Assembly (NCBI RefSeq): GCF_012844455.2
Contig: NZ_JABBCQ020000002.1
Coordinates: forward strand, 1 to 64,000
Source: Comamonas suwonensis
GTDB lineage: Bacteria > Pseudomonadota > Gammaproteobacteria > Burkholderiales > Burkholderiaceae_C
Length of the DNA stretch: 64,000 bases
Reading direction: 5' to 3'
The position numbers were made by a program, and so were the translations under genes. The notes beneath the pieces are model-generated. The model ran no database searches and was not told where the DNA came from. It saw only the letters and a program-made list of their open reading frames with translations. Below are positions 55,621 to 63,974 of the stretch, piece after piece. Within the stretch, counting starts at the first letter, position 1. Every line of letters starts with the position of its first letter.

Positions 55621-56394
55621 TCAGCGGTAACCTGCCGAGCAGGCATAGAAATGAGGATTGCTCAAATCTCGCTTTCCGTAGCTCAGAACATCTCCATTGA
55701 GTGCATGAATCTGGCCACCTGCAGCGACCAGCACTGCATGGCCTGCAGCGATATCCCACTCCATGGTGCGTCCCAAGCGCGGATAGAGGTCCGCTTCTCC
55801 CTCGGCGACCAGACAAATCTTGAGCGATGAGCCTGCACTTTTGCGCGAGCGCACCAAGCGCCCCTTAAGAAACTGATCCAGCGCATCAGCATCGCCATGA
55901 GAGCGACTGGCGACCACATCAAGGCCATCCTCAGGAATGCTTCTGCATTCAATGGCTTGGCGCTTCCCCTGCACTTCCAGCCATGCACCAAGTCCTATCG
56001 CACCCGCGTACATGCGATCCAGCGCTGGTGCGAAAACGACGCCCAGCACAGGGATTCCGTTGTCGATCAGCGCGATATTGACGGTGAACTCGCCATTGCG
56101 TTGAATAAATTCCTTGGTGCCATCAAGAGGATCAACCAGCCAGAAGCACTGCCCCATCTCAGGCACAAATCCCGCAGCAGCGGCTTCTTCAGAAACCACA
56201 GGAAACCGCGACTGCAAGGTACTCAGACGCTCAAGAATCAGATGCTCTGCCTTTTCATCGGCTTCAGTCACAGGCGAAGCATCCTGCTTACCGCGTACCT
56301 CAAAGTCGCTGCGGTAGATCTCCATGACTAAAGCACCCGCTTCGCGGGTAATGGCCATCACGTCTTCAAGCAGTACGCCTTGGATCTGAGTCAC
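55621..56394 (-). CDS. cysQ: 3'(2'),5'-bisphosphate nucleotidase CysQ
   Basis: Lithium-sensitive, magnesium-dependent phosphatase of 257 residues that removes PAP (adenosine 3',5'-bisphosphate), the inhibitory by-product of PAPS use. The metal-binding signature is seen as VVSEEAAAAGF ... WLVDPLDGTKEFIQRNGEFT and EWDIAAGHAVLVAAGG. GTG start at 56394 with AGGAGAC at 6-nt spacing. Divergent from the cysD/cysNC-sulfotransferase run; the shared 120-bp gap must hold both promoters. Its presence next to a sulfotransferase fits PAP recycling. Confidence 0.93.
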   Translation of the reverse strand: MTQIQGVLLEDVMAITREAGALVMEIYRSDFEVRGKQDASPVTEADEKAEHLILERLSTLQSRFPVVSEEAAAAGFVPEMGQCFWLVDPLDGTKEFIQRNGEFTVNIALIDNGIPVLGVVFAPALDRMYAGAIGLGAWLEVQGKRQAIECRSIPEDGLDVVASRSHGDADALDQFLKGRLVRSRKSAGSSLKICLVAEGEADLYPRLGRTMEWDIAAGHAVLVAAGGQIHALNGDVLSYGKRDLSNPHFYACSAGYR

Positions 56395-56517
56395 AAAAGT
56401 CTCCTGTGTTGTTCTTCATGTGGTCCGTTTGGCCTATGCGCCAATCAAAGGACAGACCGACAGTAAATGCATCCGAATCTTCGCCAATAAGCGATTAAAT
56501 GTTTAACAGGAATGCGC

Positions 56518-58431
56518 ATGGCTGTTGGTAAGAAACTCAGTGTTCAGGAAATCAATCCACTGCGAATTCAGGCCGTCAAATTGCGGCTTGAAGGTAAAAC
56601 ACTCAAGGAAGTCGGCGTGGCAACAGGCCTGTCTACGCCAACCATCATTGCCGCCCACAAAGCCTGGCGAGAAGGGGGATGGAACGCGGTCCTTGTGCGT
56701 GAGCGCGGGCGTAAACCGGGAGAAGGCCGCACCTTGTCGGCCATGCAGGAACAAGACATTTACATCCAACTGGTCAGCACCCAGCCCGCTGACCATGGCC
56801 TGCCTTTTCTGCTGTGGCAGCTGGAAGCCATGCAACAGCTGATCCTTCAGCGCCAGCAGCTTGAGTTGCCCGAACGCACGAACGCTCAGTACCTGCAGCG
56901 CTGGAATCTCAATGCCCAACGCCCCATCAAGCGTATGCAGCAGGCATCCACCAATGTGCAGCGCTGGTACGCCAGCACTTATCGGGACATTTGCGCACAA
57001 GCCAGAAAAGAGAGTGCCAGTATTGTCTGGATCGACGATTTTGGTGCTCATAACAACTGCCCCGGACGCCTCAGGCACGGCATTCTGCGTGCCGTCAATA
57101 ACCGCGGCAAGGTGTATTGGCAGCCCTATGAGGGCAGTTTGTGCGCCGCGCATCTAGAAGATTTCTTTGATCGTTTAAGGCGCTCCAGCGAGGGCAAGAT
57201 TTTTGCGTTGCTTCCTGCCATGCAATGGCAGCGCGCCGCCACATTTTCATCGCTTGCAAACGACAGCAAGGACCAGCTTCGCCTGTTCCATCTGCCTGCC
57301 GCCACAGAGATGCTCAGGCAGTCGAACGACTTGGCCAGCAGCGTTTTGGAGGCTGCGCAAGACACATCGCGAACATCGAAAAACACCCCAGCAAAGAATC
57401 CAAAACCACCAACGCTCGACCCTATGGCGAGCATGACGCAGCAACTTCTAAAACATCAATTCGCGCAAAAATTTTCTTTAACCGACTCCTACAGTTGGCA
57501 GCATCCAAAACAAAAAACCAAGGAGAAATCTGTGGTGCTGACTCATTTGCAAAGGCTGGAATCCGAAAGTATTCAGGCCATGCGCGAGGTTGTTGCTGAG
57601 GCAGAAAACCCCGTCATGCTTTACTCCATTGGCAAAGACAGCGCGGTCATGCTGCATCTGGCCATGAAGGCGTTTTACCCCGCCAAGCCTCCGTTTCCTT
57701 TGCTGCATGTGGACACAACCTGGAAGTTCCAGGAGATGTATCGCTTTCGCGATCAGATGGCCGCGAAGCTGGGAATGGATCTGCTGGTCCACATCAACCC
57801 CGAAGGCCTTGAGATGGGTATCAGCCCCTTCAAGCATGGCTCGCAAATTCACACCGATGTGATGAAAACCGAGGGTTTGAAACAGGCGCTGGACAAATAC
57901 GGTTTCGATGCCGCATTTGGCGGTGCACGCCGCGATGAAGAGAAATCCCGGGCCAAGGAGCGCATCTTTTCTTTCCGCTCGGACCAGCACCGCTGGGATC
58001 CCAAAAACCAGCGCCCGGAACTCTGGCATCTGTACAACACGCGCAAGAACAAGGGCGAATCAATTCGCGTGTTTCCGCTATCCAACTGGACTGAGCTGGA
58101 TATCTGGCAATACATCTATCTCGAAAACATCCCCATCGTGCCGCTCTATTTATCAGCGCCTCGCCCAGTGGTGGAGCGAGACGGAACGCTGCTGATGGTC
58201 GATGACGACCGCATGCCGCTTAAGAGTGGCGAAGTTCCCATGATGCGCAATGTGCGATTTCGTACCCTGGGTTGCTACCCACTGACGGGTGCCGTCGAAT
58301 CCGACGCCAACAGTCTGCCCAAGATCATTCAGGAAATGCTGCTGACCCGTACCTCGGAACGACAAGGACGAATGATCGATCACGACTCGGCCGCATCTAT
58401 GGAAAAGAAGAAGCAAGAGGGGTATTTCTGA
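56518..58431 (+). CDS. IS630-transposase-derived DNA-binding protein, open in frame into CysD
   Basis: Continuous frame of 637 codons. Residues 1-60 are a helix-turn-helix ([20 protein letters not shown]) and about 75-145 the second winged helix of IS630 transposases ([20 protein letters not shown], an arrangement usual in IS630), followed by [14 protein letters not shown] and a DDE-like core: WIDDFG (171-176) but no second Asp in the expected DNAxxH position ([10 protein letters not shown] instead) and no NPIE after HLP. So it is a catalytically dead transposase relic. Residues 285-338 are a low-complexity Pro/Lys linker, then the CysD sequence begins at GTG 57532 without an intervening stop. 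AGGA precedes ATG 56518. Whether one fused protein or two are made is not decidable here. Confidence 0.75.
57532..58431 (+). CDS. cysD: Sulfate adenylyltransferase subunit 2 CysD
   Basis: ATP sulfurylase small subunit of 299 residues from a GTG start preceded by AAGGAG at 6 nt (57520-57525), matching the family N-terminus ([14 protein letters not shown]). The PP-loop motif [10 protein letters not shown] and the conserved [16 protein letters not shown] are present; other segments [20 protein letters not shown] match. It makes APS from sulfate and ATP with CysN. The frame is open far upstream into a transposase-derived protein, but the internal GTG with a strong ribosome binding site suggests independent initiation. 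Its stop overlaps the cysNC ATG (TGATG). Confidence 0.9.
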
Positions 58432-62765: not shown

Positions 62766-63488
62766 ATGGAAAAAATCATGTTCAGCCTGTGGCGACCCGA
62801 GCCGCAATCGGCCGCCGCCTGGCGCCAATCGTTAATGGCACTGCATGGCCCACTGCAAGCCTGTGGTGCAAAGCAAATGCGCGTAATGGTCGTTGACGAA
62901 GCCATGGACAAAGCATCCAGCCAGCGCATCACTTTCAGCACAGATCCTCTGGATGGAGTGATCAGTCTGTGGGTGGACAGCACCTCCATGCTGGCCCCCA
63001 TAAAGGCGCTGATCGAGCAGCATGTCACTCGCCTGCATGCTTACCTGGTTTGCGAGTCCGAGCCCTACCCCCAGGAGCGCAAAGCCCGTATCGAACGCTT
63101 CAGCACAGAAGTGCCTTTGGGCCAGCGCTCACCAGGAATGTGCCAAGTCGCACTATTCCGTAAACCTGCAGGCATGGACTTTGAACGATGGATGGTCAAC
63201 TGGCGTGAAGGCCATGGAAGCAAGGCCTACCCCTTGCAGTCGATTTATGGGTATCGGCAAAACCTGGTCGTCCGTCCCCTGACTCTCGATGCACCAGAAG
63301 TTCACGCCATCGTAGAAGAGCAGTTTCCCGCTATCGCCATCGGTAGTGCCGATGGCTTTTACGACGCTCAAGGGAATGAAGAGCTGCTGCGCCAGCGGCA
63401 GAAGTACATGTCCGAATCCGTGTCACCCTTCATGGACTTCAGCAGCCTGGACTGCATTCTCACCAGCTTCTATCAAGTCAGCGTCTAA
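62766..63488 (+). CDS. EthD-like domain protein
   Basis: Protein of 240 residues with EthD-like ferredoxin-fold features, probably two tandem copies: MFSLWRPEPQSAAAWRQSLM in the first half and VALFRKPAGMDFERWMVNWR in the second. EthD-type small proteins accompany monooxygenases and other catabolic enzymes; role unknown. It starts 6 bp after the sulfotransferase stop, so it is in the same operon. Confidence 0.7.
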   Translation: MEKIMFSLWRPEPQSAAAWRQSLMALHGPLQACGAKQMRVMVVDEAMDKASSQRITFSTDPLDGVISLWVDSTSMLAPIKALIEQHVTRLHAYLVCESEPYPQERKARIERFSTEVPLGQRSPGMCQVALFRKPAGMDFERWMVNWREGHGSKAYPLQSIYGYRQNLVVRPLTLDAPEVHAIVEEQFPAIAIGSADGFYDAQGNEELLRQRQKYMSESVSPFMDFSSLDCILTSFYQVSV

Positions 63489-63518
63489 GACTGGCCCATC
63501 GCAACAGGAGACAAAAGT

Positions 63519-63974
63519 ATGTTGGACCTCGAAGCCATTGAGCTCATCAAGCAGCTCAAGGCGCGCTACTTTCGCGCCATTGACACCTGCAACCTGGAGT
63601 TGCTGCAGGGCATGCTGACGCCCGACGTGAAACTGGCCTTCAAAAGCCCTGTCTATGAATTCCAACTGCAAGGCCTTGACAAGGCCCTGGACTTCTACAA
63701 GACATCGTTTACCACGACCCGTCTGGCCATGCACAACGGGCACACCCCCGAGATTGAGGTCACGGGGGGCGAAGCAACCGCACTCTGGTATCTGAGCTAC
63801 GTCTTTATCAACCTGGAAGAGAAGACGCATATGCAGGGCGGAGCCATCTACGAGGACCGCTATGTCAAGCGCGATGGCCGTTGGTGGATTGCCGAGACTG
63901 GCTACAAGACCTTGCTGGAGACGATTCAGCCACTGAGCGATCAATTGCAGATCACGTCCAAGCCCATCCACTAA
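63519..63974 (+). CDS. SnoaL-like / nuclear transport factor 2-fold protein
   Basis: Protein of 151 residues with the SnoaL/NTF2-like cone fold: LDLEAIELIKQLKARYFRAI, EVTGGEATALWYLSYVFINL and YVKRDGRWWIAETGYKTLLE. Families with this fold include polyketide cyclases, ring-hydroxylating-dioxygenase beta subunits and steroid isomerases; no catalytic residues can be assigned here. AGGAGA precedes the ATG at 63519. 30 bp downstream of the EthD-like gene in the same run. Confidence 0.8.
   Translation: MLDLEAIELIKQLKARYFRAIDTCNLELLQGMLTPDVKLAFKSPVYEFQLQGLDKALDFYKTSFTTTRLAMHNGHTPEIEVTGGEATALWYLSYVFINLEEKTHMQGGAIYEDRYVKRDGRWWIAETGYKTLLETIQPLSDQLQITSKPIH

Follow-up and report, generated by a model that had tools for sequence, protein, structure and literature searches.

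Here we describe a gene cassette at the end of a 64,000-nucleotide stretch of Comamonas suwonensis DNA (the window; C22:1-64000, in a genome of 4.72 Mb), in which genes for the synthesis of 3'-phosphoadenosine 5'-phosphosulfate (PAPS) adjoin a sulfotransferase gene and genes for several putative small-molecule enzymes. PAPS-based sulfonation is very likely the purpose of the cassette, and its substrate is probably a steroid or a steroid-derived compound. On balance, we favour the view that the cassette provides some aerobic steroid degraders with an accessory module for sulfonation, autoregulated through an IS630-transposase-like domain fused to CysD; autoregulation is the least tested step of this joint statement.

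In the mechanism that we propose, with reactions predicted from the families of the enzymes, sulfate and ATP would be converted to PAPS by the regulator-CysD fusion and CysNC; the sulfotransferase would pass the sulfuryl group to a hydroxyl on a steroid or on an intermediate derived from one, and the by-product, 3'-phosphoadenosine 5'-phosphate (PAP), would be destroyed by CysQ. A short-chain dehydrogenase/reductase (SDR) and two BaiE-like SnoaL proteins would act on the same ring system, by oxidation of an alcohol and elimination of water or of the ester, and the hydrophobic substrate would probably be bound or handed over by the SRPBCC, EthD-like and DUF1214 proteins. Finally, the IS630-like domain on CysD would bind a block in the intergenic region, and the first enzyme of the pathway would in this way control its own promoter.

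A conserved cassette and its supply of PAPS

The order of the cassette, a divergent cysQ, the cysD fusion, cysNC and the genes for the DUF1214 protein, the sulfotransferase, a first SnoaL protein (SnoaL 1), the SRPBCC protein and the SDR, is shared by 22 full-cassette loci: that of the genome under study, six from other Comamonas, one from Halopseudomonas, 13 from Pseudomonas and one from genome G568 (L021-L023 duplicate the records L017, L016 and L012, and each record enters the count a single time). This recurrence is more than chance. The original prediction, made from the letters of the window, had recognised cysD, cysNC with a complete adenosine 5'-phosphosulfate (APS) kinase domain and a P-loop at residue 468, a divergent cysQ, and genes for DUF1214, sulfotransferase, EthD-like and SnoaL-like proteins, and had proposed a search of relatives for the same set. 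Family searches recover the DUF1214, sulfotransferase and SnoaL-like proteins in the order given (see the table below), Comamonas, Halopseudomonas and Pseudomonas carry the set, cysQ is divergent in all 22 loci with a fused cysD, and the predicted overlaps, TGATG between cysD and cysNC and ATGA between the DUF1214 and sulfotransferase genes, are present in the DNA. The cluster continues past 63974, the last position of the range first given: the putative operon extends beyond position 64000 with genes for the SRPBCC protein, the SDR and a second SnoaL_4 protein (SnoaL 2), separated by small gaps and followed by an integrase gene. These genes, the fusion to CysD and the resemblance of SnoaL 1 to BaiE had gone unremarked.

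The sulfotransferase is encoded in all 22 full cassettes, and the DUF1214 protein is 66-90% identical in 23 other loci. The EthD-like protein has a full-length match in 18 of the 22 (partial in L013 and L017, none in L024 and L109), and 18 of the 22 likewise have a recognisable separate SnoaL 2 (L026 ends early). Locus L021, in which the EthD match is incomplete, comes from Comamonas testosteroni ATCC 11996. In two minimal cassettes (G654, G633), an unfused cysD-cysNC pair is divergent from DUF1214, sulfotransferase and SDR genes, an SRPBCC gene is also present, and SnoaL, EthD, cysQ and the N-terminal domain of the fusion were unmatched in the stretch examined; this minimal form gives CysD, CysNC, DUF1214, sulfotransferase, SDR and SRPBCC as the core of the cassette. 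An 896-residue open reading frame with RHS-type-like repeats, judged by eye, lies between the unfused cysD/SRPBCC genes and the DUF1214 gene in G654 (L107:6801-9491). A single transcript is less certain, given the 118-bp gap between cysNC and the DUF1214 gene and the divergent cysD-cysNC of the minimal cassettes. Scans for promoters and terminators were uninformative, with fewer sites than in shuffled sequences (1 versus 3.6 and 5 versus 8.5).

CysD and a CysN/APS kinase stand beside a sulfotransferase of the PAPS-dependent type. CysNC has P-loops at residues 31 (GSVDDGKS) and 468 (GLSGAGKS), and its APS kinase domain is the single full copy found in a genome search with PF01583 (227 bits; the other match is of 22 bits over 46 positions). 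The sulfotransferase is the sole Sulfotransfer_3 protein of the genome, in a search restricted to that sulfotransferase family. One full APS kinase, located in the cassette, was found in each of the seven cassette-bearing Comamonas (226-232 bits), versus none of the four genomes tested that have the steroid enzyme KshA (see below) and lack the sulfotransferase (G001, G002, G022, G030), in which matches of 21-22 bits over 46 positions formally exceed the 21.1-bit cut-off. A second APS kinase (160-174 bits) is present in all three Pseudomonas/Halopseudomonas genomes tested. The original prediction had reported no cysH or cysI nearby, had advised looking for them elsewhere in the genome, and would have been contradicted by relatives with cysH/cysI adjacent and the sulfotransferase absent. 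Neither the window nor any of 23 related loci, each about 18-21 kb long, gave a match to cysI or cysH, save one weak cysH match inside CysD in L012, and none of the 23 shows the contradicting arrangement. A cysI-cysH-cysD2-cysN2 set, distinct from the cassette, occupies C22 130.3-135.8 kb, some 65 kb beyond the cassette end. Its CysN lacks an APS kinase domain, and its CysD shares 49% identity with that of the window.

These findings bear on the alternative that the cassette is a second sulfate-activation set, the PAPS of which goes wholly or partly to cysteine assimilation and only on the side to the sulfotransferase, which we consider very improbable. It draws support from CysD and CysN being assimilation enzymes, from two CysD fusions elsewhere (G1010 and G915, described below) that adjoin cysNC and have no recognised sulfotransferase within the stretch covered, and from the CysH of the genome (L018:6566-7201, C22 about 132.6-133.2 kb; short, 211 residues as listed). 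CC/CxxC cysteine pairs mark APS reductases; this CysH has neither, and it scores higher with PAPS-reductase models (111-127 bits) than with the APS model (63 bits), all below cut-off. If CysH is PAPS-dependent, the cassette APS kinase would also feed assimilation, and part of the cassette PAPS could be used in this way. The alternative is opposed by the separate cysI-cysH-cysD-cysN set, the absence of cysH and cysI matches from 23 cassette loci, the sulfotransferase in every full cassette and the restriction of full APS kinases, in the Comamonas tested, to genomes with the cassette. A role in assimilation only is unlikely. The lack of a full APS kinase in the four cassette-less Comamonas tested is an argument that this type of CysH may be able to live on APS, and it is possible that CysH is a cluster-free reductase acting on that compound. 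The dedicated sulfonation put forward originally is well supported by the sole full APS kinase, the sole Sulfotransfer_3 protein and the separate assimilatory set, and tempered by a CysH that may draw on PAPS; we hold it highly probable that the PAPS of the cassette serves sulfonation exclusively.

The IS630-like domain on CysD and the intergenic block

CysD is present, as first proposed, but in a single open reading frame of 637 residues, in which about 300 extra N-terminal residues resembling an IS630 transposase precede it. The frame is listed at 56512-58431, with a likely start at 56518, chosen by Shine-Dalgarno spacing and by comparison with relatives; in those loci that were read, a Shine-Dalgarno-like sequence lies ahead of the first start codon. 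The N-terminus matches the NCBIfam model transpos_IS630 over residues 18-180 (64 bits, under the cut-off of 100) and the helix-turn-helix families HTH_29 and HTH_33 with E values of 1e-5 to 6e-5, slightly under the curated cut-offs. The frame is open in seven Comamonas genomes, with exactly 640 codons including the stop, and the domain holds its syntenic position in 22 loci; its identity to the window is 89-96% in Comamonas and 71-73% in 13 Pseudomonas loci and one from Halopseudomonas. NG86 ratios of nonsynonymous to synonymous substitution over 21 Comamonas pairs were 0.108 for the helix-turn-helix part, 0.060 for the DDE-like part, 0.461 for the linker and 0.013 for CysD. The fused domain is like IS630-family transposases in its helix-turn-helix motifs and the order of its elements; unlike them, it is joined to CysD, is under purifying selection and, relative to standalone transposase-like frames, has kept the first catalytic Asp and lost the second Asp, the Glu and a loop of about 25 residues, leaving no intact DDE/D triad. 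The genome yielded one IS630-like domain match, that fused to CysD (six of nine candidates scored), and not the several copies of a mobile element. The IS630-like part is a coding, probably non-transposing domain, joined to CysD via a loose linker.

Translation of CysD from an internal start, instead of a fusion, was considered and rejected: no Shine-Dalgarno-like sequence precedes M308, and the frame is open in 17 loci. A second, internal start within the fusion frame may nevertheless be used. A plasmid-borne fusion was also discarded, as none of 433 matching plasmid records covers 80% of the fused query. A search of the PDB with the N-terminal profile gave an unrelated protein as the best match (E 0.26).

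The fusion is full-length in all 22 full cassettes, 14 of which were retrieved with the fused N-terminal domain as the query, so that the fused state is partly a matter of selection; among loci retrieved through the sulfotransferase, it is fused in the six other Comamonas and in G568, and unfused in G654 and G633. A 399-genome sample of the order contained two further fusions (G241 and G301; open frames of 603 and 606 codons; one 555-residue frame, in G313, is not counted), adjoining cysQ and cysNC and close to genes that, by eye, are large-sulfotransferase-like and polysaccharide-like. A 369-genome sample of the class added four (G1010, G915, G1019 and G816), and in G1019 and G816 (L135, L136) fusion frames of 637 residues lie among capsule-type genes, judged by eye, with no adjacent full cysNC. 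In G1021 (L133:9094-13609) an unfused IS630-like helix-turn-helix gene of 261 residues directly precedes cysD, cysNC and cysQ, possibly a pre-fusion or split state. In a tree of the helix-turn-helix region (FastTree, 94 columns), all 14 sequences linked to CysD group together in a single clade (support 0.964), separate from 24 hand-picked transposase-like sequences, which suggests a single domestication of the IS630-like domain onto CysD.

The region between cysQ and cysD contains a block, TGGTCC-N4-GGMCTATGCG, in all 20 aligned loci. A search of 15 cassette genomes allowing at most one mismatch found one perfect match in each, always at the cassette, and an additional one-mismatch site in G016. 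The reversed control pattern itself had 0-2 matches per genome at the same stringency, for which reason isolated matches carry little weight, and the case relies on the block being conserved at a single position. In the stretches examined upstream of the distant fusions L092 and L093, TGGTCC does not occur. Judging from the sequences, the most likely ligand of the IS630-like domain on CysD is the TGGTCC-N4-GGMCTA block, through which the CysD fusion perhaps controls its own promoter.

Association with steroid degradation

The sulfotransferase was searched for in 37 Comamonas genomes, those of low completeness included (16 extra Comamonas genomes fall outside this search). KshA, the 3-ketosteroid 9α-hydroxylase, was recognised by KshA_C (PF19298) at more than 100 bits in 12 of the 37, and the seven genomes with the sulfotransferase are all among those 12 (Fisher p 7.7e-5). 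In a 199-genome sample of Pseudomonas, KshA exceeds 200 bits in 27, and the four genomes with the sulfotransferase fall within these (p 2.8e-4); with the seed genome removed, three of 26 KshA-positive genomes have it (p 0.002). Strong KshA matches were found in all 21 full-cassette genomes searched and in both minimal ones, with scores above 215 bits in the 13 cassette-bearing Pseudomonas/Halopseudomonas genomes searched (that of L036 was left out). KshA lies at most 2 kb downstream of the cassette in six of 14 Pseudomonas/Halopseudomonas loci (L025, L030, L033, L034, L037 and G456, L031). Flanks past the 20-kb loci were covered partially, in seven cassette genomes (G449, G450, G454, G455, G456, G457, G654), and in four of these (G449, G450, G455, G654) an HsaC-like dioxygenase is encoded about 17-18 kb from the cassette. 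Of the Comamonas loci, L012-L017 and L021-L023 gave no match to KshA, the HsaC-like protein or DUF1329.

The proteins of the cassette are also informative. SnoaL 1 has three PDB matches at E <=0.01, all of them BaiE, the bile acid 7α-dehydratase (best E 3e-21), and shares with the BaiE type an NTF2-like family and conserved Tyr, Asp and His: Tyr17, Asp22, His72 and His75 do not vary among 22 SnoaL 1 and 18 SnoaL 2 sequences, and we take them to be the catalytic positions of BaiE. The PDB relatives of the sulfotransferase, 2zq5 and 2z6v, are both uncharacterised and presumably of mycobacterial origin; sulfotransferases of polyketide synthases are not among these two matches, and the protein is about 32% identical in places to Planktothrix records annotated as polyketide synthases. 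The assignment to EthD holds as a likeness and not as formal membership of PF07110 (16.3 bits in the window and 20.9 bits in L025, versus a cut-off of 22); its structure model (pLDDT 61; best Foldseek E 1.3e-3, none <=0.001) gives a hint of a tandem ferredoxin-like fold. A hydroxysteroid would fit a cassette that combines a sulfotransferase with an SDR and dehydratase-like proteins. The steroid-like molecule among the substrates first suggested is favoured by the co-occurrence and adjacency of KshA, although the substrate itself is deduced from context.

A number of observations weigh against our explanation as a whole. KshA and the cassette could occur together through lifestyle or ancestry, and the p-values overstate independence because loci and lineages are related. 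The Comamonas cassettes are not near KshA, which is on a different contig in the genome under study and about 230 kb away in G016; the sulfotransferase is missing from five of 12 KshA-positive Comamonas and from 23 of 27 in the Pseudomonas sample; and the HsaC-like score is 280 bits, versus a cut-off of 450. To these are added the two minimal cassettes, which lack the fusion, SnoaL and EthD, the CysD fusions with no recognised sulfotransferase nearby, the matches to the reversed operator pattern and the poor structure model of the fusion (pLDDT 37.8). Among KshA-positive genomes the cassette is accessory, not core.

Accessory presence (seven of 12 KshA-positive Comamonas) is what would be expected of a protective module, in which toxic or inhibitory steroids, such as bile salts or phenolic estrogens, are sulfonated for solubility and export and not for degradation; this proposal shares the steroid substrate with ours and differs in purpose. 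In both H. xiamenensis and P. umsongensis, major facilitator superfamily transporters are encoded on the flanks of the cassette, and the Bacteroides protein BT_0416 makes cholesterol sulfate (PMC9417993, in the part of the article available). The cassette itself has no transporter, and its SDR and pair of BaiE-like proteins point to metabolism beyond sulfonation; we regard protection as a tentative possibility. Sulfonation of a surface polysaccharide, a lipid or another non-steroid, such as a phenol or terpenoid, appears unlikely. The CysD fusions of G301, G241, G1019 and G816 lie, by eye, among polysaccharide- or capsule-like genes, and the uncharacterised state of 2zq5 and 2z6v is compatible with such a substrate; against it stand the association with KshA, the conservation of the SDR, SnoaL and SRPBCC proteins, typical of small-molecule chemistry, and the flanks of five loci, in which no glycosyltransferase or polysaccharide-export genes were recognised by eye (no dedicated search was made). 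The surface glycolipid of the original prediction finds no support at the cassette. Within the steroid interpretation, sulfonation might be an activation step in which an unactivated hydroxyl of the ring or side chain becomes a sulfate leaving group, eliminated by the BaiE-like or SRPBCC partners, opening substrates poorly handled by the standard 9,10-seco pathway, with the supply of PAPS controlled by the transposase-derived DNA-binding domain in CysD, the committing enzyme; the fusion would then unite enzyme and regulator in one protein of single origin, put to use in several gammaproteobacterial sulfate-activation modules; in its entirety this elaboration seems quite doubtful.

Surroundings of the cassette and relation to known systems

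The features of the cassette are collected in Table 1. The open reading frame of the DUF1214 protein is listed from a GTG at 60412, with the ATG at 60463 as the likely start.

Table 1. Features of the C. suwonensis cassette (window positions; C22 marks contig positions)
Feature	Position	Strand	Evidence and remarks
cysQ, 3'(2'),5'-bisphosphate nucleotidase (PAP removal)	55621..56394	-	TIGR01331 295 bits, cut-off 228.8; divergent
TGGTCCNNNNGGMCTATGCG, non-coding block, imperfect dyad, candidate operator	56421..56440	.	between cysQ and cysD
IS630-transposase-like domain (helix-turn-helix and degenerate DDE part) and linker	56518..57426	+	in-frame fusion to CysD
CysD, sulfate adenylyltransferase small subunit, C-terminal part of the fusion	57427..58431	+	PRK12563 556 bits, TIGR02039 510 bits; SIGKDS
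cysNC, sulfate adenylyltransferase GTPase subunit and APS kinase, 637 aa	58431..60344	+	PRK05506 1049 bits; APS kinase domain complete (PF01583 223 bits in the window family scan)
DUF1214 protein	60463..61572	+	PF06742 45 bits, cut-off 25
Sulfotransferase (Sulfotransfer_3), 396 aa	61569..62759	+	PF13469 125 bits; GLPRTGTT motif
EthD-like protein, accessory, perhaps tandem ferredoxin-like	62766..63488	+	EthD 16.3 bits, below cut-off
SnoaL_4/NTF2-like protein (SnoaL 1), BaiE-like candidate dehydratase	63519..63974	+	PF13577 83 bits
SRPBCC	C22:63988-64467 (63988..64000 in window)	+	PF10604 32 bits
SDR	C22:64501-65295, beyond window		adh_short_C2 143 bits
SnoaL 2	C22:65313-65777, beyond window		SnoaL_4 84 bits

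About 470 bp past SnoaL 2 lies the integrase gene (L002:4252-5712, C22:66251-67711; PRK09692 domain 67 bits, cut-off 434), and about 4 kb beyond it a tRNA-Pro gene (L002:9904-9980); in this strain the cassette may be bordered by an integrated element. On the other side, a gene for a TctC-type transporter receptor (window 54565-55539) adjoins cysQ; it is found beside the cassette in all six other Comamonas loci (59-90% identity) and has no match in the 14 Pseudomonas/Halopseudomonas loci. Further upstream (window 48416-54339) are a GntR regulator and a RamB/ScfR-type regulator, recognised by family scans, and AcnD-like and PrpC-like genes, assigned by eye. Steroid breakdown yields propionyl-CoA, and a propionate (2-methylcitrate) set near the cassette would be of interest for this reason.

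PAPS genes beside a sulfotransferase are a known kind of arrangement. What appears to be new is the presence of such a cassette among steroid degraders, together with the joining of an IS630-like domain to CysD: neither was described in the literature searched (top-ranked papers, openings of abstracts). We take the rhizobial NodPQ to be homologues of CysD and CysNC. NodPQ act with the NodH sulfotransferase in Nod factor sulfation and are also needed for sulfated surface polysaccharides (PMC6192434); as far as the accessible part of that article goes, the cassette resembles them as a second sulfate-activation set that feeds a sulfotransferase. In Bacteroides, the cholesterol sulfotransferase BT_0416 adjoins putative PAPS genes, BT_0411-0415, and is cholesterol-responsive (PMC9417993); the two loci share PAPS synthesis genes beside a sulfotransferase, that of BT_0416 acting on a sterol. 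Unlike this locus of a gut anaerobe, the cassette has BaiE-like, SDR, DUF1214 and EthD partners and a regulator-CysD fusion, of which the portion of the article available makes no mention. On the plasmid NZ_CP032828 of Sphingomonas paeninsulae (L019), a sulfotransferase 40% identical to that of the window has SDR and DUF1214 genes nearby and cysD-cysN-cysQ on the same plasmid, in a catabolic-looking region; unlike in the cassette, the genes are spread over about 47 kb, CysD is unfused (a coding sequence of 939 bp) and a metallo-beta-lactamase-fold hydrolase gene lies beside the sulfotransferase and SDR genes.

Among proteins of steroid pathways, SteC of C. testosteroni is a 12-beta-dehydratase of the SnoaL/NTF2 family, BaiE-like, described in an article the available text of which has no word beginning with "sulf" (PMC13101464). 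SnoaL 1 is similar to SteC by family and BaiE likeness, not by direct comparison; unlike SteC, it belongs to a pair of SnoaL paralogues encoded within a sulfonation cassette. The 7-alpha-dehydratase Hsh2 is described in a review on the breakdown of bile acids, the available text of which contains no word beginning with "sulfo" (PMC8399759).

If the proposed function is correct, a sulfonation branch would be added to bacterial steroid degradation, and the cassette-bearing Comamonas offer a clean test system for it, because their sole full APS kinase is in the cassette. The fusion, in turn, would represent a domesticated transposase serving as the built-in regulator of a metabolic enzyme, and would be a marker for such modules across the Gammaproteobacteria.

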